From an uncultured Ardenticatenia bacterium (GTDB lineage Bacteria > Chloroflexota > Anaerolineae > 4572-78 > NAK82), in contig CAKZLO010000032.1 in assembly GCA_937127125.1 (NCBI GenBank), positions 1 to 64,000 on the forward strand: a stretch of DNA of 64,000 bases. Reading direction: 5' to 3'. Under the pieces are notes generated by a model. The model was given only the letters and a program-made list of their open reading frames with translations, was not told where the DNA came from and searched no databases. The position numbers and the translations under genes were made by a program. This document shows, one piece after another, positions 14,982 to 44,289 of this stretch (positions within the stretch are counted from its first letter, which is position 1; each line of letters opens with the position of its first letter).

Positions 14982-15659
14982 ATGGCTGCCCAACACGTGG
15001 TGATACTCGCTAATGGTCAGCTGTCCGATTTGCAGCGTGCCCGCCAACGCATTCAGACGGCTGATCGCTTGATTTGCGCCGATGCTGGTGCTGCTCACGC
15101 CATTGCCATGGGAGTAATGCCAGATCTGGTAGTGGGCGATCTGGATTCATTGAATCCTGATCATTGCACTATGCTGGAAGCAGCAGGAGTGCGCTTTGAG
15201 GTGTACCCTAAGCTTAAGGATAAGACTGACTTAGAGCTGGCACTCCATCTGGCCGTTGCAGAGGGGGCAGCTCGAATTGACCTGCTGGGGACCCAGGGAG
15301 GACGTTTGGACCAGTCACTCGCCAATTTGTTGTTGTTGGCACGCCCTGAGTGGCAGACAGTACGACTCCACGTCATTGAGGGTGACCAGACGGCCTGGGT
15401 GGTGCGTTCTGGACAAGCCAGCGTGGTCAGCGGGGCGATCGGGGACAGCCTGTCCTTGCTCCCTCTTACTCCAGAGGTAGGAGGCGTTAGTCTCTCCGGG
15501 GTGCGCTGGCCGTTATCCGATCGTACGTTACGCCTAGGTGACACCCTCACCATAAGCAATGAGCTGATAGAGGCGTCTGCTCGCGTGGAAGTTGGCACAG
15601 GCCTTCTGCTAATTGTCCACCGAGGTAACGCATGTTCAGTTGATTTTTACCAGAAATAG
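14982..15659 (+). CDS. thiN: thiamine diphosphokinase
   Basis: A 225-residue enzyme that transfers pyrophosphate from ATP to thiamine to give TPP. The N-terminal catalytic domain shows ICADAGAAHA near residue 31, VVGDLDSL near residue 48, and DKTDLELAL near residue 80. The C-terminal domain begins near residue 135 with the typical beta-rich SLLPLTPEV stretch. Start at 14982, 6 bp after the V4R stop. Together with the TPP-riboswitch YkoE-C-D operon at 38.1-42.7 kb it supports salvage of thiamine or its precursors. Confidence 0.9.
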   Translation: MAAQHVVILANGQLSDLQRARQRIQTADRLICADAGAAHAIAMGVMPDLVVGDLDSLNPDHCTMLEAAGVRFEVYPKLKDKTDLELALHLAVAEGAARIDLLGTQGGRLDQSLANLLLLARPEWQTVRLHVIEGDQTAWVVRSGQASVVSGAIGDSLSLLPLTPEVGGVSLSGVRWPLSDRTLRLGDTLTISNELIEASARVEVGTGLLLIVHRGNACSVDFYQK

Positions 15660-33414: not shown

Positions 33415-36400
33415 ATGACCCGCAGAATGGTAACGGTAGATGGCAACGAAGCGACTGCCTATGTTGCTCATCGCGTCAGTGAGGTTATTGCCATCTACCC
33501 GATCACACCCTCCTCCCCAATGGGTGAGTGGGCAGATGCTTGGTCGGCACAGGGAGTGCCCAACATCTGGGGCACAGTGCCGTTGGTGATTGAGATGCAA
33601 TCAGAGGGCGGCGCTGCTGGCGCTGTGCATGGTGCCTTGCAAACCGGCAGCCTGTGTACCACCTTTACCGCCTCACAAGGTCTGCTGCTGATGATCCCTA
33701 ATATGTACAAAATCGCTGGTGAGCTCACGCCCACCGTGTTCCATGTTTCGGCGCGCACGTTAGCGACGCATGCGCTCTCCATATTTGGCGACCATTCCGA
33801 CGTGATGGCAGTACGTGGCACCGGCTTCGCCCTGCTCGCTTCCTCATCGGTACAAGAAGCACAGGATATGGCGATGATCGCTCACGCTGCTACGCTCAAA
33901 GCACGGGTGCCGTTCTTGCATTTCTTCGATGGCTTTCGCACTTCGCACGAGATCAACAAGATCGAGCAGCTGACACTGGATGATATGCGCGCTATGATTG
34001 ACGACGATCTGGTGCGTGCTCACCGCGAGCGCGCTATGACGCCGGACCGTCCCATCTTACGTGGTACTGCGCAGAACCCTGATGTCTTTTTCCAGGCACG
34101 CGAGGCGATCAACCCCTACTATCTGGCCTGCGCAGGAATAGTACAGGAGACCATGGACCGTTTTGCGCGCCTGGTGGGTCGCCAATATCACCTGTTTGAC
34201 TATGAGGGAGCACCTGATGCCGAACATGTGATCATCATCATGGGATCGGGCGCGATCACTGCGGCTGAGACGGCGCGCTATCTTGTGGCGCAGGGCGAGA
34301 AGGTAGGTGTCGTTACTGTGCACTTGTATCGTCCCTTCTCCAACGTGCATTTCTTGCAGGCCCTGCCGCCCACCACCAAGTCTATCGCTGTGTTGGACCG
34401 CACTAAGGAGCCTGGCGCCGCAGGCGAGCCGCTGTACACCGATGTAGTGACAGCTATAGCAGAAGGTATGGCGCAGGGTATTGCCCCCTTCCGAACGGTT
34501 CCTCGCATCATTGGTGGCCGGTATGGACTCTCCTCCAAAGAATTCACCCCAGCTATGGTGAAGGGTGTCTTCGACGAAATGCGTAAGGAGCAACCGAAGA
34601 ACCACTTCACCGTGGGTATCACGGATGATGTGACCCACACAAGCATTGAGTATGATCCTTCGTTCGATATAGAGAGCGAGGACACTGTACGTGCTGTCTT
34701 CTTCGGGCTGGGCTCGGACGGCACAGTGGGCGCCAATCACAACTCGATCCGCATTATTGGCGAGAAGACGGACAATTATGCACAAGGCTACTTCGTTTAC
34801 GACTCGCGTAAGGCGGGTACGGTTACTATGTCCCATCTGCGCTTTGGCCCGAGACCGATCCGCGCGCCCTACCTGATTAACAAAGCCAGCTTTGTTGCCT
34901 GTCACCAGTTCCCCTTCCTTGAGCGTTTTGATATGCTCAAGTATGCCAAGCCCGGTGCTGTGTTCCTGCTGAACAGCATCTACGGGCCAGATGAAGTGTG
35001 GGATCACCTGCCACGTGAGGTACAGCAGGATATCATCGAGAAGAAGCTGCGCTTCTACGTGATTGATGCCTATGAAGTGGCACGGCGCACCGGTATGGGC
35101 GGCCGCATCAACACCATCATGCAGACCTGTTTCTTCGCCATCAGTGGAATATTACCACGTGATCAAGCTATAGCAGCCATTAAAGAGACCATCCGCGAGA
35201 CTTACGGCAAGCGAGGCGAGGAAGTCGTACAGCGCAATTTCAACGCGGTCGATCAGGCGCTTGCGAATTTGTACGAAGTGCAAGTACCTGACAAAATCAC
35301 CAGTACCTTCACTCGCCGGCCACCTATGCCTGAAGACGCGCCGCCGTTTGTGCGCGACGTGCTCGGTGCCATAGTTGCTGGTGAAGGTGACCGCCTGCCG
35401 GTCAGCGCCATGCCAGTGGACGGCACTTTCCCGACGGCTACCACGCGCTACGAAAAGCGCAACATTGCGCTGGAGATCCCAGTTTGGGAGCCGGACATCT
35501 GCATTCAATGTGGCAAATGTGTGTTTGTTTGTCCGCACGCGGTCATCCGCGCCAAGGTTTACGACCCAGCCTATCTGGTCAAGGCGCCGCCGACCTTTCG
35601 GTCCACCGCTGCCAAGTTCAAGGAGGTCTCCAAGGATATGAGGTACACGCTGCAGGTGGCGCCAGAGGATTGCACTGGCTGTGCGCTATGTGTGGAGGCG
35701 TGCCCAGCTAAGGACAAGACACAGCTGGGCCGCAAGGCGATCAACATGGCACCTCAGCCGCCCATCCGTGCCCAGGAGCGCGAAAATTGGGAGTTTTTCC
35801 TCTCCCTGCCTGAGGTGGAGCACGGCAAGTTTAGCTTCAACATGGTGAAGAATGTGCAGCTGTTGCAGCCACTATTTGAGTTTTCCGGTGCCTGTGCCGG
35901 TTGCGGTGAGACGCCCTATCTCAAGCTGATGAGTCAGCTGTTCGGCGACCGCATCATTGCTGCAAACGCTACGGGTTGCAGCTCCATCTACGGCGGCAAT
36001 TTGCCCACCACCCCATGGGCGACCAACGCCGAGGGACGCGGCCCGACGTGGTCGAACTCATTGTTCGAGGACAACGCCGAGTTTGGGCTGGGCATGCGCC
36101 TCACCTTGGACAAACAGCTGCAATATGTGCGTGAGCTGCTCCCGCAGTTCGCCGCCCAACTGGGAGACCAGCTGGTGAACGAACTGCTGCGCGCAGATCA
36201 ATCGGATGAGGTGGGCATTCGCAAGCAACGCGAGCGCGTTGCCTTGCTCAGACAGCGATTGCAAGGCAGCACGCATCCACGCGCGCGCGATCTATTGAGC
36301 CTGGCCGACGTGCTGGTGCGCAAGAGTGTCTGGATCATTGGAGGTGATGGCTGGGCTTATGACATTGGCTACGGTGGGTTGGATCACGTGCTCGCCTCGG

Positions 36401-37014
36401 GGCGCGATGTCAATATATTGGTGTTGGATACAGGGGTCTATTCCAATACTGGCGGCCAAGCGTCCAAGGCGACACCTCGTGCAGCAGTGGCTAAGTTCGC
36501 TGCGCAAGGCAAGGATCGACCGCGCAAGGACTTGGGTTTGATGGCCATTGCCTATGGCACCGTCTACGTAGCCAGCGTGGCAATGGGATACAACGACCAG
36601 CAGACGCTCCGCGCCTTCCTCGAAGCGGAATCCTATCCCGGTCCTTCATTGATCATCGCCTACAGCCACTGCATTAACCATGGCATCGATATGCGTAAGG
36701 GGTTGGAGCAACAAAAACTTGCTGTCCAGTCTGGTCTATGGCCCGTCTACCGCTACGATCCGCGGCTGGTGGCTGAGGGCAAGAACCCACTCATTTTGGA
36801 GTACAAGGGGCCTCAGATCCCACTGGAAGAGTACGTCTACAGCGAAACGCGCTTCCGTATGCTGGTCCAAGCTGACGAGGCACGCGCCGAGATGTTACTA
36901 CGGCAGGCCAAGGAGGATGTCCTGATGCGCTGGAAATTCTACCAGCAGATTGCTGCCATGCGTTACGGCGATGGCGCTGAGTCCACCGAGGAAATTCGGC
37001 AGGTAGAGGGATAA
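33415..37014 (+). CDS. nifJ: pyruvate:ferredoxin (flavodoxin) oxidoreductase, single chain
   Basis: An 1199-residue homodimeric-type enzyme that oxidises pyruvate to acetyl-CoA and CO2 and reduces ferredoxin or flavodoxin. It begins with the pyrimidine-binding domain (YPITPSSPMGEWAD near residue 28). Two 4Fe-4S motifs follow in the ferredoxin-like domain (CIQCGKCVFVCP near 696 and CTGCALCVEACP near 752). The C-terminal TPP domain shows GCGETPYLK near 830 and GDGWAYDIGYGG near 979, with LDTGVYSNTGGQ. Length is typical. The ATG has GGAGGT at nine bases. A dihydroorotate-dehydrogenase-like gene begins 7 bp later. Confidence 0.96.
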   Translation: MTRRMVTVDGNEATAYVAHRVSEVIAIYPITPSSPMGEWADAWSAQGVPNIWGTVPLVIEMQSEGGAAGAVHGALQTGSLCTTFTASQGLLLMIPNMYKIAGELTPTVFHVSARTLATHALSIFGDHSDVMAVRGTGFALLASSSVQEAQDMAMIAHAATLKARVPFLHFFDGFRTSHEINKIEQLTLDDMRAMIDDDLVRAHRERAMTPDRPILRGTAQNPDVFFQAREAINPYYLACAGIVQETMDRFARLVGRQYHLFDYEGAPDAEHVIIIMGSGAITAAETARYLVAQGEKVGVVTVHLYRPFSNVHFLQALPPTTKSIAVLDRTKEPGAAGEPLYTDVVTAIAEGMAQGIAPFRTVPRIIGGRYGLSSKEFTPAMVKGVFDEMRKEQPKNHFTVGITDDVTHTSIEYDPSFDIESEDTVRAVFFGLGSDGTVGANHNSIRIIGEKTDNYAQGYFVYDSRKAGTVTMSHLRFGPRPIRAPYLINKASFVACHQFPFLERFDMLKYAKPGAVFLLNSIYGPDEVWDHLPREVQQDIIEKKLRFYVIDAYEVARRTGMGGRINTIMQTCFFAISGILPRDQAIAAIKETIRETYGKRGEEVVQRNFNAVDQALANLYEVQVPDKITSTFTRRPPMPEDAPPFVRDVLGAIVAGEGDRLPVSAMPVDGTFPTATTRYEKRNIALEIPVWEPDICIQCGKCVFVCPHAVIRAKVYDPAYLVKAPPTFRSTAAKFKEVSKDMRYTLQVAPEDCTGCALCVEACPAKDKTQLGRKAINMAPQPPIRAQERENWEFFLSLPEVEHGKFSFNMVKNVQLLQPLFEFSGACAGCGETPYLKLMSQLFGDRIIAANATGCSSIYGGNLPTTPWATNAEGRGPTWSNSLFEDNAEFGLGMRLTLDKQLQYVRELLPQFAAQLGDQLVNELLRADQSDEVGIRKQRERVALLRQRLQGSTHPRARDLLSLADVLVRKSVWIIGGDGWAYDIGYGGLDHVLASGRDVNILVLDTGVYSNTGGQASKATPRAAVAKFAAQGKDRPRKDLGLMAIAYGTVYVASVAMGYNDQQTLRAFLEAESYPGPSLIIAYSHCINHGIDMRKGLEQQKLAVQSGLWPVYRYDPRLVAEGKNPLILEYKGPQIPLEEYVYSETRFRMLVQADEARAEMLLRQAKEDVLMRWKFYQQIAAMRYGDGAESTEEIRQVEG

Positions 37015-37020
37015 ACGACG

Positions 37021-38040
37021 ATGACTGATCTGAGCACTACATATCTGGGACTGCAGCTGAAGAATCCCTTGGTCGCTTCTGCCTCGCCGCTCTCTGAAAA
37101 GGTAGAGGTGGCGCGTCAGCTGGAGGAGGCCGGCATCGGTGCTATCGTGATGTATTCGCTGTTTGAAGAGCAGATCATTCATGAGAGCTTGGAGCTGGAT
37201 TATTATCTCGAGCGCGGCACGTACGCCTATGCCGAAGCCTTGACCTACTTTCCGGATGTTGGACGGTATGGTCTGGTACCAGATAAATATCTTGATAAGA
37301 TTCGCGAGCTCAAACGCAACCTCAGCGTGCCAATCATCGCCAGCTTGAACGGAGTTTCTCCTGGTGGGTGGATCAAGTATGCCCAGAAGATCGAGGATGC
37401 TGGTGCCGACGCGTTAGAGCTCAATATTTACTATCTAGCTACAGACTCCGATCTGACAGGGACAAAACTGGAGGACCGTTACATAGACCTGGTACGCTCG
37501 GTGCGTTCCAGTGTACGAATTCCTTTGGCGGTGAAACTGAGCCCGTTTTTCACTGCCTTGCCGAATATGGCGAAACGGTTGGTGGAAGCGGGCGCGGATG
37601 GGTTGGTGCTCTTCAATCGTTTCTATCAACCGGACTTTGACTTAGAGGCATTGGAGGTTGTGCCCAACCTGACATTGAGCCGGCCTGAGGAGCTACGTCT
37701 ACCGTTGCGTTGGATCGCGATTCTGTATGGTCGTGTCGAGGCCGATCTGGCTCTCACTACTGGCGTACATAGCGGCAGGGATGTGGCAAAAGCTATTCTG
37801 GCTGGTGCTTCGGTAGCAATGACTGCCTCAGCGCTGCTCCTCAATGGTGCAGGCCACGCAACCAGCATCCTATCAGAGTTGCAGCAGTGGATGGCAGAAC
37901 ACGAGTACACCTCGGTTGCGCAGATGAGAGGCGCGATGAGCCAGCAGTCGGTGGCAGAACCAGCCGCTTTCGAACGCGCCAACTATGCGAAAGTGCTCAG
38001 TTCGTTCGACGTGAACGCGATCAGCATGCGGGAGCGTTAG
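37021..38040 (+). CDS. dihydroorotate-dehydrogenase-like flavoprotein
   Basis: A 339-residue FMN-type TIM-barrel protein. It begins like PyrD proteins ([21 protein letters not shown]), has PIIASLNG near residue 105, LELNIYYL near 136, AVKLSPFF near 165, and [13 protein letters not shown] near 262. It lacks an evident partner PyrK, and such proteins are frequently encoded directly after pyruvate:ferredoxin oxidoreductase, as here (7 bp). A role in pyrimidine synthesis is therefore doubtful; it may accept or donate electrons with the oxidoreductase. True substrate unknown. Confidence 0.85.
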
Positions 38041-38119: not shown

Positions 38120-38148
38120 TTGACAAGAACATAGCTATCGGGTATAAT
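38120..38148 (+). promoter_or_regulatory. consensus promoter of the thiamine-uptake operon
   Basis: TTGACA (38120-38125), 17-bp spacer, TATAAT (38143-38148): a perfect match to the sigma-70 consensus. Transcription would begin near 38155, just before the TPP aptamer. Confidence 0.9.
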
Positions 38149-38167
38149 TTATTCTAGAAGTGAATAA

Positions 38168-38270
38168 GCGATACCGGGGGAGCTGAGTGAGCTCAGCTGA
38201 GAGGAGACCGGATGGATGTCTCGACCCCTTGAACCTGACCTGGGTAATGCCAGCGTAGGGAGTGTATGTG
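38168..38270 (+). ncRNA. TPP riboswitch (THI element)
   Basis: The thi-box is clear: CTGAGA at 38197-38202 after a stable AGCTGAG/CTCAGCT stem, and GAACCTGACCTGG at 38231-38243 followed by TAATGCCAGCGTAGGGA to 38261. ATAC (38171-38174) and GTAT (38264-38267) can close P1. CCTGACCTGG (38234-38243) in the aptamer can pair over ten bases with CCAGGTCGGG (38293-38302) of the terminator, giving an antiterminator when TPP is absent. Binding of TPP would release the terminator and switch the operon off. Confidence 0.95.
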
Positions 38271-38279
38271 AAAGTGCAC

Positions 38280-38317
38280 AGCCACCCACCGACCAGGTCG
38301 GGTGGCTGTCTCATTTT
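38280..38317 (+). terminator. riboswitch-controlled terminator
   Basis: AGCCACCC (38280-38287) pairs with GGGTGGCT (38300-38307), followed by GTCTCATTTT. The T tract is short, so termination may be moderate, and the hairpin also sits just before the ribosome site AAGGAGG at 38318-38324. Confidence 0.75.
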
Positions 38318-38334: not shown

Positions 38335-39477
38335 ATGGACATTGCCCGTTATCTAGTCGAAAAGATTGGCCCGCGTTGGGCAGGTCGTGATAGTGCTGCA
38401 CAGGCTGCTCAGTTTGTGGCAAGAGAGTTCGCGCAACTGGGCCTTCAGGTGACAACCCAGGATTTCCCTTTCCTGGGTTGGGAGGTGGATGAGCTGCCCG
38501 TGTTGGAGATACTCGAGCCTCAGCCGGGTTATGCGTCTGTTGCGCTGATGGAATATTCAGGCTCGACCCCTATGGAAGGACTAGAGGGAGAGCTTCGTCC
38601 GGCCGGCCTAGCCGGCATTGTGCCTGGTTTTCTGGATTGGCCGCGTTATGCCATCGTGGACGGCAATGACAGAGTAGCAGCATATTTGATCGCTCACATC
38701 GGTCTGGCTGGATGGTTTGCTCCGGCGATTCCGCTCGCCAACCCCGAGCCGTTCTACTCTTTCCCGATGGCGATCCTGTCCCAAGCCGATCATCAGCGCT
38801 TTCAGGAATGGCTGAGCGCAGGGGAACGCGTTCGTGTACGCTTTCGAGCACGTGGCCACTACAAAGGAGATTACATCGGTCACAACGTGATCGCCAGTCT
38901 GCCTGGCAAGACGGAGTGCAGCGTGGTGTTATGCGCTCACCTCGATACGGCATATGGCACTCCGGGCGCCAACAATAACGCAGGGGGCATTCAGGCACTT
39001 TTCCACGTGGCACAACAACTACTGGCCATACCCGATCGCAAACTGACTTACCAGCTACTTGCCTGTGATGCTACCGAGTGGCATTACCTGGGCTCACATT
39101 TCTTCGTTCAAGAAGCACGAGCCCACGGTCGCCTCAAGAATATTCTGGCAGGCATCAATCTGGACACTATTGCCTCTGGAGATCAGCTCTTTTTCTTGGC
39201 ATGGCCGCAAAGCATGCGCGACCGCGCTGAAAGTGTGGTGAGCCAGTTGAAATTGCATGAACGTTTCCGCACAGTAGAGTTCCTTGGCCATTTGGCCGGC
39301 TCCGATCATTATTCCTTTATCCAGGCAGGGATACCGGCTGCAGAGATTCTTTTCTGGCCTTGCCCGGTGTATAAAACCCCTGAAGACGATATGAGGTTTG
39401 TGGATGAGAAGATGATTATGTTAGGCGCAGAAATTGCATATGCTTTGGCGCTCACTTTTGAAAAGGAGGTGAAATAA
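38335..39477 (+). CDS. M28-fold metallopeptidase-like protein under TPP control
   Basis: A 380-residue cytoplasmic protein with the M28 aminopeptidase fold. The first metal site reads AHLDT (His202, Asp204). The segment that normally holds the bridging Asp (G-x-x-D-N) reads GANNNAGG, with Asn214 at that place. The usual Glu-Glu pair reads Thr247-Glu248, so the general base is missing. A later NLDTI and SDHYSF supply the remaining Asp and His. It is the first gene behind the TPP riboswitch, and the YkoE gene starts one base after its stop. It may process or bind a thiamine-related compound; ordinary peptidase activity looks doubtful. ATG 38335 has AAGGAGG at ten bases. Confidence 0.87.
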   Translation: MDIARYLVEKIGPRWAGRDSAAQAAQFVAREFAQLGLQVTTQDFPFLGWEVDELPVLEILEPQPGYASVALMEYSGSTPMEGLEGELRPAGLAGIVPGFLDWPRYAIVDGNDRVAAYLIAHIGLAGWFAPAIPLANPEPFYSFPMAILSQADHQRFQEWLSAGERVRVRFRARGHYKGDYIGHNVIASLPGKTECSVVLCAHLDTAYGTPGANNNAGGIQALFHVAQQLLAIPDRKLTYQLLACDATEWHYLGSHFFVQEARAHGRLKNILAGINLDTIASGDQLFFLAWPQSMRDRAESVVSQLKLHERFRTVEFLGHLAGSDHYSFIQAGIPAAEILFWPCPVYKTPEDDMRFVDEKMIMLGAEIAYALALTFEKEVK

Positions 39478-39478
39478 G

Positions 39479-40075
39479 ATGGCTGGCGAAAGAATGGATC
39501 TGGGACTGACACGGTGGACAACCCGCGAGATCGTCATTATGGCGGTCATTTCAGTGGCACTTGGGTTGATCTTTATGGCATACGGTGTGCTGTATCTCGC
39601 CCTCGTGCCACTGCTGGGACAGGTGGGGATCATGCTCCTGTTAGGATTCTACTACCTGACAGGTATTCTGGTCCCTTACATTGTACGTCGCCCCGGCGCA
39701 GCGCTGGTGTCCTCGTTCCTGGCTGCCTTCACCGAGCTCCTTGTCGGCAGCCCATTCGGTATCGCTGCTGTGTGGGCTGGTCTGGTACAGGGGGCCGGCG
39801 CAGAAGTCGTCTTTGCCCTGCGACGCTGGCGCGATTATCGCTTGCCGGTCTTGATGGGGGCAGCAGTCCTTTCTGGGGTGTTCGCCTACGTGTATGAGTA
39901 CTTCCTGCTCAGTTATGCTGTGCTCGATCCCGCCGTGCAGCTCGGGCTTTTCTTGGTGCGCATTCCGAGCGCAATAGTTTTAGCTGGCTTGCTGGGCAAG
40001 GTACTGGGCGATGCCCTTGCACGTACAGGGGTGCTGCGCGGCCTGGCGATTACGCGTGAGGGGACGAGGGTTTGA
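39479..40075 (+). CDS. ykoE: YkoE, S component of thiamine-precursor ECF importer
   Basis: A 198-residue membrane protein with about six helices, matching the YkoE family that binds hydroxymethylpyrimidine or thiamine. Family features include the TREIVIMAVISVALG first helix, YLTGILVPYIVRRPGAAL near residue 60, and AAFTELLVGSPFG near 82. Its AAGGAGGTGA ribosome site lies in the last codons of the M28-like gene. The TPP riboswitch upstream supports the substrate class. It overlaps ykoC by 4 bp. Confidence 0.93.
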   Translation: MAGERMDLGLTRWTTREIVIMAVISVALGLIFMAYGVLYLALVPLLGQVGIMLLLGFYYLTGILVPYIVRRPGAALVSSFLAAFTELLVGSPFGIAAVWAGLVQGAGAEVVFALRRWRDYRLPVLMGAAVLSGVFAYVYEYFLLSYAVLDPAVQLGLFLVRIPSAIVLAGLLGKVLGDALARTGVLRGLAITREGTRV

Positions 40076-40899
40076 GCGTAAGCCTGTATCAGGAGAACGA
40101 CACCTTTTTGCACCGCCTCAATCCAGTGGCGAAGATTGCTGCATTCTCTTGTTTCATCCTGGCTTCGACCCTTTACCTGGATGTGGCGGTGCCGTTTGCC
40201 ATGCTCGTCCTTTCGTGGCTGATCGGGTGGAGTCTGGCGCACATCAGTCCACTCGCTCTCTTGCGCCGTCTGAGCCCAATACTGGCAGCTGCCGTAGGGC
40301 TTACAATATTCAACACCCTTTTCTACGGTGGCCCTCGCGGAGACCCAATTCTGGCGCTCGGTCCTATCTACATCTGGCGTGAGGGTTTGGAGGTCGGTAG
40401 CAGTATCGGTCTGCGCATCCTGTGCGTTGCCTCCTACTCCATCTTGTATGTATGGACAACCGACCCTGGACGGCTGGTTGCCAGTTTAATTCAGCAAGCG
40501 CGTATGCCGTACCGTCTGGCTTATGCAATTCTGGCCGCATATCGCTTTGTGCCCATCTTGCAGCGGGAACTGGCCAACATTCAAGCCGCTCAACAGGTGC
40601 GTGCAGTCCATTTGAGAGGGCATGGTGGCTTGTTCCGTCGCATCGTCAGCTATAGCATTCCACTCCTGGTCAGCGGGATACGTCAGGCCGAACGACTGGC
40701 CATTGCGATGGATGCACGAGGTTTCGGGACACTGCCGGAACGGACGTACTACGTTCGCACACCATTGAGACTCGCGGATTATGCGTTTTCTATTGCCTCC
40801 ATAGTGGCATGCGGTCTGCTCTTGCTTGCACTAGGCGAACTGGGGTTGCTCCATGGTTTCCTGATCGGGGTCGCGGAACGCGTGGCAGGTGCGCAATGA
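40072..40899 (+). CDS. ykoC: YkoC, T component of thiamine-precursor ECF importer
   Basis: A 275-residue EcfT-type coupling protein with an N-terminal LNPVAKI motif, five or so membrane helices and the two coupling motifs, here QQVRAVHLRG near residue 175 and AMDARGFG near residue 212. It starts at TTG overlapping the ykoE stop (TTGA), about nine bases after AGGGG. Its stop overlaps the ykoD ATG (ATGA). Confidence 0.92.
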   Translation: MSVSLYQENDTFLHRLNPVAKIAAFSCFILASTLYLDVAVPFAMLVLSWLIGWSLAHISPLALLRRLSPILAAAVGLTIFNTLFYGGPRGDPILALGPIYIWREGLEVGSSIGLRILCVASYSILYVWTTDPGRLVASLIQQARMPYRLAYAILAAYRFVPILQRELANIQAAQQVRAVHLRGHGGLFRRIVSYSIPLLVSGIRQAERLAIAMDARGFGTLPERTYYVRTPLRLADYAFSIASIVACGLLLLALGELGLLHGFLIGVAERVAGAQ

Positions 40900-42674
40900 C
40901 GGCTGAATACGGCATCCGGGTTAATGCCTTGCGCTTTCGTTACATGGACTCTCCCACACCAGTCCTCAACAGCGTGGATATGGAGATTCGGCCTGGTGAG
41001 ACAGTTCTCCTACTCGGCCGAAGTGGCTGCGGCAAGAGCACGCTGGCTCTGTGTCTGGACGGTCTCATTCCCCACGAAATCCCTGGCGATTTCGACGGTG
41101 AGGTGTGGATCGGGCCATACATGACATTGCATACGTCCCCCGATCGCTTGCGCCAGGTGGTGGGGATCGTTTTTCAGGATCCGGAAGCACAGCTGGTGAT
41201 GCCGCGCGTGGATGAGGAAGTCGCTTTTGGCCTGGAGAACCTTGCCTTCCCCGCAACAGCGATGCCAGCACGTATCGGCAATGCATTAGCCCTGGTGGGG
41301 CTTTCCGAGAAAGCCAAGGCGTGGGTGGAAACTCTGTCGGGTGGGCAGAAACAACGTCTGGCGTTGGCTGCTGTGCTGGCTATGCAACCATCTGTGCTGA
41401 TACTCGACGAACCGACTGCTAATCTCGATCCGTCGGCAACTCTTGCGTTTTATCGCACCATGGAACATCTACGCCACAGCACGAAAGCGACCACCCTACT
41501 CATCGAGCATCGCATTGACGCCACATTGCCCTTAGTAGATCGCGTTGTGGTGATGGGTGAAGACGGGCGCGTGATCACGGCCGGCAGTCCCCGTGAAATA
41601 TATGCAGCGAGCGATGCCGCACTACAGCGGGAAGGCGTCTGGGTACCGAGCAGCTGTCGCCTAGCAGCTGCTCTGAGATCTATCGGATGGCCGTTGGAGG
41701 GCTGTCCCTTAACCATCGCGGAGATGGAACAAGTGATACGTTCATCTCTGGTGCTGCACGCGGGCGCGGGTGCCTCGTTGCCAATAGGCACTGCTGCGGA
41801 TACTTCACATCAAGCCCTCTCCGGCCATCCTGACGAGGCCATCTCCGTCGAGGGGGTAAGTTTTGCCTATCCCGACGGCACCGTCGCGCTCAGGGATGTA
41901 CATCTCCACGTGCCACGCGGCAGTTTCTTCGCGCTCGTAGGAGCCAATGGATCAGGAAAGACCACATTGGCCAAAATCCTGACGGGTCTCTTGCCGGCCA
42001 GGAATGGCAAAATCAGCATCCTGGGGCAGGAGGTCACATCGCGCAACCGCTCCCAAATATCCCGCTGGGTGGGCTACGTCTTCCAGAACCCGGAACACCA
42101 GTTTGTAGCCGAACGCGTGAGTGACGAGCTGGCCTACTCACTGGACAGTCAGCTGGAAGCTATGGAGAGACAACGTCGGATTGAAAAACTGCTGGCGCAG
42201 TTTGGATTGAGCGATGAGAGGGGTTCCAACCCCTTCTCGCTCAGCCAAGGTCAGAAGAGACGTCTAAGCATTGCCACTATGGTGGCGATGGAACAACCTA
42301 TTCTCATCCTAGACGAACCCACCTTTGGTCAGGATTATCGCAGCGCTCAAGAGGTGATGTCTGTTATTCGTTCGCTACAACAGGCTGGTACCACCATTGT
42401 GTGCATCACGCATGATATGCAGCTGGTGGCCGATTACGCTCAAGAGGTGGCTGTAATCGAACAAGGCCAGGTGACTTTCCAGGGCTCACCCCGTGCCCTT
42501 TTCCGGCAGCCTGAGCTCCTGGAACGCGCCGGGCTCGACCTTCCCCCGTTAGCTGTGCTGGGTGCCCGTCTGGGGCTGGAGGGCCTTTACACTGTCGAGG
42601 ACTGGCTGTTGTGGGCGTCCGCCTATGCGCCCATAGTCGACAAGGCACATTATTGTCGCACTCAAGGATGGTGA
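40896..42674 (+). CDS. ykoD: YkoD, fused double ABC ATPase of the thiamine-precursor importer
   Basis: A 592-residue protein with two ABC domains. Domain 1: Walker A GRSGCGKST near residue 40, Q-loop FQDPEAQLV, signature LSGGQ, Walker B LILDEP, and a switch His in LIEHR. Domain 2: Walker A GANGSGKTT near residue 349, FQNPEHQF, signature LSQGQ, Walker B LILDEP, CITHD. It energises YkoE-YkoC. It is the last gene of the riboswitch operon and converges on pstB (57 bp between stops, no obvious terminator). Confidence 0.93.
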   Translation: MTAEYGIRVNALRFRYMDSPTPVLNSVDMEIRPGETVLLLGRSGCGKSTLALCLDGLIPHEIPGDFDGEVWIGPYMTLHTSPDRLRQVVGIVFQDPEAQLVMPRVDEEVAFGLENLAFPATAMPARIGNALALVGLSEKAKAWVETLSGGQKQRLALAAVLAMQPSVLILDEPTANLDPSATLAFYRTMEHLRHSTKATTLLIEHRIDATLPLVDRVVVMGEDGRVITAGSPREIYAASDAALQREGVWVPSSCRLAAALRSIGWPLEGCPLTIAEMEQVIRSSLVLHAGAGASLPIGTAADTSHQALSGHPDEAISVEGVSFAYPDGTVALRDVHLHVPRGSFFALVGANGSGKTTLAKILTGLLPARNGKISILGQEVTSRNRSQISRWVGYVFQNPEHQFVAERVSDELAYSLDSQLEAMERQRRIEKLLAQFGLSDERGSNPFSLSQGQKRRLSIATMVAMEQPILILDEPTFGQDYRSAQEVMSVIRSLQQAGTTIVCITHDMQLVADYAQEVAVIEQGQVTFQGSPRALFRQPELLERAGLDLPPLAVLGARLGLEGLYTVEDWLLWASAYAPIVDKAHYCRTQGW

Positions 42675-42731: not shown

Positions 42732-43493
42732 TTAGCCCGCACGGCCTGTGATGTAATTCTCTGTCAGGGGCTGGGATGGGTTCGTGAAAATTTTGGCAGT
42801 GGAGTCGAATTCCACTAACTCGCCTAACCAGAAGAAGCCGGTCCATTCAGACACACGCGCAGCCTGTTGCATACTGTGTGTGACGATCACGATACAGTAA
42901 TTGACTTTGAGTTTCTGCATTAATTCCTCAATTTGAAGTGTTTCGATAGGATCGAGCGCCGAACAAGGCTCGTCCATCAAAATCACCTCTGGCTTAACAG
43001 CGATGGCCCGTGCAATACACAAACGCTGTTGCTGCCCCAATGAGAAACTCAATGCATCTTGGTTGAGGTGGTCCTTGACCTCTTCCCACAGGCCAGCTCC
43101 ACGCAAGCTCTCCTCTACAATGTCGTCCAGCTGGGATTTGCGCACCGTCCCCAGCGCGCGTGGCCCAAATGCCACATTGTCGTACACTGACTGGGGAAAG
43201 GGATTGGGACGCTGGAACACCATCCCCACACGCCGTCGCAGATCTGTCACATTAACACGTCGTTCATAGATATCTTGCCCTTCGAGCAAAACCTTCCCTT
43301 CTACACGCGTGCCGCTTATGGTGTCGTTCATACGGTTCAGGCAGCGCAGAAAGGTGGACTTGCCGCAACCGGAAGGTCCAATGAGCGCAGTGATCTGACG
43401 GTCGGGGATGGTCAAAGTGACACCAGATAGAGCGCGAAACTTCCCGTAATAAAAGTTGAGATTCTGCACAACGAATTTGTTCATGATGCCCAT
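42732..43493 (-). CDS. pstB: phosphate transporter ATPase PstB, second paralogue
   Basis: A 253-residue ABC ATPase of the phosphate importer. Walker A is GPSGCGKST (39-47), the Q-loop is the standard FQRPNPFP with Gln94, Walker B is VILMDEP, and the switch is VTHS. The signature, however, reads FSLGQ (150-154) in place of LSGGQ. It lies one base after the other PstB. The two could form a heterodimer in which the normal LSGGQ of the partner serves this subunit's ATP site. Confidence 0.92.
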
Positions 43494-43494
43494 G

Positions 43495-44289
43495 TTATCC
43501 GAAGCGGCCCGTGATGTAATCTTCGGTGCGCTTATCCCTCGGAGCTGTGAAAATGTTCCGGCCAGGCTGGTGTTCGACTAGTTCGCCTCCTAGAAAGAAC
43601 GCAGCGTAGTCTGCCACGCGTGCTGCCTGTTGAATACTGTGAGGCACCATAATAATGGTGTAGTGTTTCTTGAGTGCAAATAGCGACTCCTCAACCTTAC
43701 CAGTCGAGATTGGATCAAGCCCAGAGGTAGGCTCATCCAGCAGCAACACTTCGGGCTCCATTGCTAGGCTGCGCGCAATGCACAGACGCTGCTGCTGGCC
43801 GCCCGATAATGCGTTGGAGGGCTCATCGAGACGATCTTTTACCTCGTCCCACAACGCTGCTTGCTTCAAACTGCGCACCAGAATTTCCTCCAGGCGTGTA
43901 GGATCGCGTACACCAGCCAGCTTGGGACCGTAGAGGACGTTCTCTCGCACGGTACCGGGTAACGGCAACGGTAGCGCAAAGACGATACCTACGCGGCGCC
44001 TGAGCTCTGATACATTCACCTCTGGTGCATAGATGTCCTGCCCATCTAAGAGAATACGCCCCACCATGCGGGTATCCTCGAGTAGATCGTTAAGCCGGTT
44101 AATCAGTCGCAGCAAGGTGGATTTGCCACCTCCAGTGGGCCCAATCAGAGTGGTAATCGCGTTGGCTGGTATGTCCAGAGATATGTTGCGCAGACGCAGC
44201 TGGTCACCATACCAGTAGCTGACATTCTCAATCTGCACTTTCGCTGGCCGATCAATGAACGGATCATCCTCGGGTGTGTTCATCACCAT
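43495..44289 (-). CDS. pstB: phosphate transporter ATPase PstB, first paralogue
   Basis: A 264-residue PstB. Walker A is GPTGGGKST (50-58), the signature LSGGQ (161-165) is normal, Walker B is VLLLDEP and the switch is VPHS. The Q-loop reads FALPLPLP, with Ala105 replacing the conserved Gln. It overlaps pstA by 7 bp. ATG 44289 follows GAAGGAGG; ATG 44283 is an alternative. The complementary defect in the second PstB suggests a specialised pair. Confidence 0.92.

Follow-up and report, generated by a model that had tools for sequence, protein, structure and literature searches.

In the analyzed window, a stretch of 64,000 nucleotides, a gene for a protein with the M28 peptidase fold is located between a TPP riboswitch and the transporter gene ykoE. 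This arrangement raises the question of which function a peptidase-like protein could serve in a riboswitch-controlled uptake operon. Two readings were offered in the preliminary description, a thiamine-salvage hydrolase and a binding protein. The second of these is favoured by the results given here.

Regulatory leader and operon structure

The host genome of the window (G000) belongs to the Chloroflexota and is 95% complete; its same-genus relatives are labelled as Anaerolineae/Ardenticatenia MAGs. The operon has the order promoter, TPP riboswitch, terminator-like hairpin, M28-fold gene, ykoE, ykoC and ykoD. Its features, together with the gene for thiamine pyrophosphokinase (TPK), are:

14982 to 15659, + strand: TPK (TIGR01378, 173 bits, cut-off 76.4; PF04263 and PF04265)
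38120 to 38148, + strand: promoter of the sigma-70 type, TTGACA-N17-TATAAT (12 of 12 consensus bases, consensus scan)
38166 to 38279, + strand: TPP riboswitch aptamer (Rfam RF00059, 72.4 bits, E=2.6e-12)
38277 to 38314, + strand: expression platform, a GC-rich hairpin with a T-rich tail, probable terminator (fold -27.9 kcal/mol, z -4.8)
38335 to 39477, + strand: M28-fold pseudoenzyme of 380 aa, as read from the PF04389 match, the residues N214/T247/K347 and the AF2 model
39479 to 40075, + strand: YkoE, S component of a group I ECF transporter (PF09819, ABC_cobalt family, E 3.8e-29; 5EDL, E 9e-38)
40072 to 40899, + strand: YkoC, ECF T component of the CbiQ family (PF02361, E 5.8e-35)
40896 to 42674, + strand: YkoD, double ECF ATPase (PF00005 in two stretches; TIGR04520, 442.9 bits)

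The promoter lies 18 bases ahead of the aptamer. The number of sites found by the promoter scan in the leader region was not above that of shuffled sequences; the site at 38120-38148, however, matches perfectly and is correctly placed. The loop of the hairpin (CCAGGTC) could pair with the complementary GACCTGG of the aptamer, as read from the sequence. The hairpin was not among the elements listed by the pattern scanner of the leader region. It was found in all four orthologous loci with differing stem sequences, which fits a transcription-terminating expression platform.

The open reading frame starts with the ATG at 38335, which is preceded by AAGGAGGG, and ends at 39477. The gene junctions of the operon measure 1-4 nt, with a single base between the M28-fold gene and ykoE, whereas ykoC overlaps ykoE and ykoD overlaps ykoC. 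The RF00059 element lies directly upstream of the M28-fold gene on the same strand, which places the gene in a TPP riboswitch regulon, and YkoE, a T component and a double ATPase occur together as in YkoEDC group I ECF operons. The M28-fold gene is therefore, as described previously, the first gene behind the riboswitch and coupled to the YkoE-C-D importer.

Just upstream of the riboswitch (33415-38040), genes resembling pyruvate:ferredoxin oxidoreductase, a TPP-dependent enzyme, and dihydroorotate dehydrogenase are located; the orthologous operons have other genes at this position. Directly behind ykoD, on the opposite strand (42732-44289, -), there are two tandem ABC ATPases which by appearance resemble paralogous PstB phosphate-transport ATPases.

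Family, orthologues and active-site residues

The protein matches PF04389 over residues 184-361 (E=2.4e-25, 89.8 bits, cut-off 21.3) and is thus a member of the M28 family by homology. Its profile matches were to M28 and DUF4910 only, and it is not a member of the M20 family to which YlmB belongs. No signal peptide was found, and a cytoplasmic location is the best reading. The AF2 model (pLDDT 87), which supersedes an earlier model built from 4 sequences (pLDDT 70), is most similar to 2EK8 (Foldseek E 8e-23), PaAP, BSAP and 3IIB. Transferrin receptor and nicalin were also among the matches; these and nicastrin are M28-fold proteins with protein-protein roles.

Orthologues of the window protein were identified in G287 (80%), G051 (79%) and G031 (66%). 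Since G031 represents another family within the class, the carriers are four genomes from two families. At all three orthologous loci a TPP riboswitch (65-70 bits) precedes the M28 gene and ykoE and ykoC follow downstream, and the upstream neighbours differ. The E-value of the riboswitch (2.6e-12) and the same arrangement in four genomes of two families indicate more than chance. Six further relatives, at loci lacking the riboswitch, have intact residues at all three positions discussed below. The question raised in the preliminary description, whether homologues with altered residues recur beside TPP riboswitches, could thus be answered positively: all four homologues with Asn214 and Lys347 are located behind a TPP riboswitch with ykoE, and intact homologues occur without it.

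The gene is rare, with 4 carriers among about 660 sampled Chloroflexota genomes. It was found in none of nine other genomes of the order of G031, and a scan of genome contigs returned no carriers beyond the two same-genus genomes again. A plasmid search gave only distant M28 matches (25-32% identity) of partial length. The open-access literature searched contained no account of an M28 protein encoded in an operon under a TPP riboswitch. The dN/dS ratio was 0.07 for G287 and G051, the least saturated, moderately diverged pair, and ranged between 0.04 and 0.16 across all pairs, which is not above that of the neighbouring ykoC. These ratios indicate strong purifying selection and hence a functional gene; a decaying gene was rejected on the same grounds. 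As the four sequences form one clade, the residue changes amount to a single evolutionary event.

The zinc ligands of the aminopeptidase 1AMP are His97, Asp117, Glu152, Asp179 and His256 (PMC7522609, Table 1). The last of these is part of an IHTTQD motif and not of the SDH motif, which begins at residue 228, 28 residues before His256. In all four orthologues the bridging Asp (1AMP Asp117) is replaced by Asn214, whereas Asp is found in all six intact relatives. The general-base Glu (1AMP Glu151) is Thr in three orthologues and Gly in the fourth. The alignment to solved M28 enzymes thereby confirms the earlier assignment of Asn214 and Thr247 to these two positions. The zinc-ligand His of the Y-H-T-P-x-D motif (1AMP His256) is Lys347 in 4/4 orthologues, and this column holds His in the six intact relatives, 2EK8, 6HC6 and 1AMP. 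The accompanying claim of otherwise preserved metal ligands was therefore wrong; to uphold it, His325 in the SDH motif would have to be counted as the last ligand. A metal site complete except for two residues was rejected accordingly, as Lys347 replaces a third position.

In total, three of six catalytic or metal positions are lost, and His202, Glu248 and Asp277 (1AMP His97, Glu152 and Asp179) are invariant in the four orthologues. Site 1 (Asp117/Glu152/His256) now reads Asn/Glu/Lys and site 2 (His97/Asp117/Asp179) reads His/Asn/Asp, which makes a two-zinc hydrolase site very unlikely from the residues present. Lys347 probably pairs with Glu248. The drift of the general-base position to Gly in G031 argues that general-base catalysis is not maintained. 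Asp245 was considered as a substitute base and rejected, since Asp is frequent there in intact relatives.

Compared to the M28 aminopeptidases (2EK8, BSAP 6HC6, 1AMP, SGAP 1CP7), the window protein has the same fold, the same ligands at 202, 248 and 277 and the same motif order (AHxD, GANxNAGG, xEx, NxD, SDH, Y-x-xPxD). It differs in the three replaced residues, the lack of a signal peptide and the location in a riboswitch-controlled vitamin operon. Judged by its residues, it is an M28 homologue but no M28 peptidase, and the gene should not be annotated as an aminopeptidase. A comparable loss or alteration of metal ligands is known from transferrin receptor, nicastrin, nicalin and GPAA1, which are, however, large eukaryotic proteins with protein-binding or transamidase roles and no vitamin link. 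The window protein adds a case from bacteria to the M28 pseudoenzymes, one in which the site is modified and partly retained.

Intact relatives and thiamine metabolism of the carriers

Five of the intact relatives (G071, G184, G227, G274 and G502) have N-terminal extensions resembling lipoprotein signals; their loci showed no riboswitch. The closest intact relative is the M28 protein of G565 (L056:2038-3276, -) with 29% identity, which is sister to the four orthologues in an unrooted FastTree phylogeny (local supports 0.996-0.999). Like the window protein it lacks a signal peptide, both have the middle region and the EW motif in common, and its operon contains an ECF transporter of the ykoE-ykoD-ykoC type. 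Unlike in the window protein, all catalytic residues are intact. The operon comprises ykoE-like, ykoD-like and ykoC-like genes, hyuA, hyuB, a PLP decarboxylase, a class III aminotransferase and the M28 gene. The top NCBIfam model for hyuA is caprolactamase alpha with a score below the cut-off, so that these genes are referred to as hydantoinase/caprolactamase-like. No TPP riboswitch was found at this locus, and its YkoE lacks Glu77 and Gln95. A non-thiamine, lactamase-like operon with a ykoE-type ECF transporter is a plausible evolutionary source of the M28-fold gene: as this one locus suggests, the thiamine operon may have acquired an ECF-tied M28 amidase that lost its catalysis. The region L056:2038-13603 (contig 1 of G565, -) is possibly an uptake-and-breakdown system for lactams or hydantoins.

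In the four carrier genomes, which are drafts (95, 95, 82 and 99% complete), no ThiC, no TMP synthase of the ThiE or ThiN type and no full-length ThiD was found; the matches to the ThiD family are partial and of the pfkB type. In G565, a related genome, the same searches recovered both ThiE and ThiD, and they therefore work in this phylum. By the gene content of these drafts, the four carriers are apparently thiamine auxotrophs. TPK is present in all four genomes and would turn imported thiamine into TPP. In the window its gene is located outside the operon, 23 kb upstream; a riboswitch of its own was not seen there. A second TPP riboswitch in G000 governs an ABC importer of the ThiB/ThiP type, which probably carries thiamine itself. 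Given the absent synthesis genes, the TPK and this second importer, the carriers appear to take up the complete thiamine skeleton. The thiamine salvage route requires ThiE, Th1 or ThiN (PMC10470507). Without ThiC, ThiE, ThiN and full-length ThiD, the carriers would have no means of turning a released aminopyrimidine back into thiamine, and this speaks against a salvage hydrolase of the YlmB type.

Proposed function and alternative explanations

The gene ykoE (PF09819) was found in 64 of 301 sampled Chloroflexota genomes. Apart from the four M28-carrying loci, which are left out of this count, the position between riboswitch and ykoE could be inspected in 24 sampled Chloroflexota loci: it is occupied by TPK in 10 and by YkoF in 1, and 13 have no gene there. 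Irrespective of a riboswitch, YkoF was also found just upstream of ykoE in four further genomes. The presence of TPK or YkoF elsewhere suggests that the genes in this position deal with thiamine itself. In other bacteria, the ykoE operon encodes YkoF, a soluble protein that binds thiamine and the role of which has been called unclear, and the B. subtilis YkoE binds thiamine with a Kd of about 4.5 nM (PMC5037267). No match to the YkoF family (PF07615) was found in any of the four carrier genomes.

With about even confidence, the window protein is considered to be a cytoplasmic M28-fold pseudoenzyme that serves thiamine uptake by binding the imported vitamer and so corresponds in function to YkoF, although its fold is unrelated. 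Like YkoF, which binds thiamine and HMP and is encoded in the B. subtilis operon ykoFEDC, it is soluble, first behind the riboswitch and directly before ykoE. The two differ in fold and sequence, and ligand binding is only predicted for the window protein; its likeness to YkoF in function is one of operon position only. We infer the thiamine-type ligand, the lack of catalysis and the step served, which would be that of a YkoEDC partner or of a feeder of TPK.

At low TPP, the riboswitch would permit expression of the operon, and YkoEDC would bring in thiamine or a thiamine vitamer. The former di-zinc site would form a largely metal-free pocket (Asn214, Thr/Gly247 and Lys347, the latter probably paired with Glu248), in which the imported vitamer or its phosphate ester could be bound. 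The bound vitamer might then be passed towards TPK or buffered, or the M28-fold protein might gate the transporter. The invariant His202, Glu248 and Asp277 could retain one metal ion and some chemistry.

More tentatively, and with the balance somewhat against it, the protein could represent a new class of bacterial vitamin-handling protein, in which an M28 zinc site was rebuilt (Lys for His, Asn for the bridging Asp) to bind thiamine or thiamine phosphate, and which was recruited from a lactam/hydantoin-type ECF operon into the position of YkoF or TPK. A second, unrelated soluble protein in the YkoF position would point to a requirement for a soluble partner among group I thiamine ECF transporters, and it provides a clean test case in auxotrophs to which thiamine fragments are of no use.

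The main idea of the preliminary description was an M28 counterpart of the M20 enzyme YlmB, which would deformylate formylaminopyrimidine for HMP salvage. YlmB is likewise TPP-linked and hydrolase-like in fold, within the broader group of di-zinc peptidases, the di-zinc sites of M28 and M20 enzymes are related, and the riboswitch and the linkage to ykoE would suit such a role. YlmB belongs to another family, though, and the ThiD and ThiE it needs are absent from the carrier genomes. This candidate was rejected on the pathway genes, which were detectable in G565, and with Lys347 and the loss of catalytic residues added it is now highly improbable. An ordinary aminopeptidase merely located in the operon is the least probable reading of all: the nearest solved structures are aminopeptidases, but three catalytic or metal positions are lost in all orthologues, the signal peptide is missing and the linkage to riboswitch and ykoE is conserved. 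A role as structural or regulatory partner, either of YkoEDC or of some other protein, and without a thiamine-type ligand, is unlikely but of more weight, as M28-fold pseudoenzymes with protein-protein roles exist and the gene is co-transcribed with the transporter. A pure scaffold would not need the active-site motifs, which are kept except for three substitutions, and the position in the operon is elsewhere occupied by thiamine-handling proteins.

A hydrolase with altered chemistry, which converts a modified whole vitamer (e.g., acylated or ring-opened) to thiamine and in which the substrate or a single metal compensates for the lost residues, is likewise rather doubtful. The bridging Asp, the base (Thr or Gly) and one zinc ligand are all gone, and none of the M28 hydrolases compared here has the same residue set. 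The invariance of His202, Glu248 and Asp277 is in its favour, as is the second riboswitch-controlled importer, which probably takes thiamine itself. The YkoE pocket also bears on this explanation. In 5EDL, thiamine is contacted by Tyr46, Trp49, Glu77, Gln95 and Asp131 (PMC5037267). All four M28-linked YkoE proteins have Leu, Tyr, Glu, Gln and Glu at these positions, compared to Y-W-E-Q-D in B. subtilis, whereas TPK-linked YkoE proteins mostly have x, Trp, Ser, Gln and Asp. The pyrimidine contacts Glu77 and Gln95 are thus kept, while the thiazole side differs by Leu for Tyr46 and Glu for Asp131, and Trp49 is replaced by Tyr. Judged by these contacts, the pocket suits thiamine or else a vitamer that is altered in the thiazole half. 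The cargo may therefore differ from thiamine, and the altered thiazole side keeps the hydrolase of altered chemistry alive beside the preferred binding protein. At five other loci (L063, L064, L066, L067 and L068), riboswitch-linked YkoE proteins have Glu at the pyrimidine contact Gln95 and may accept a different vitamer.
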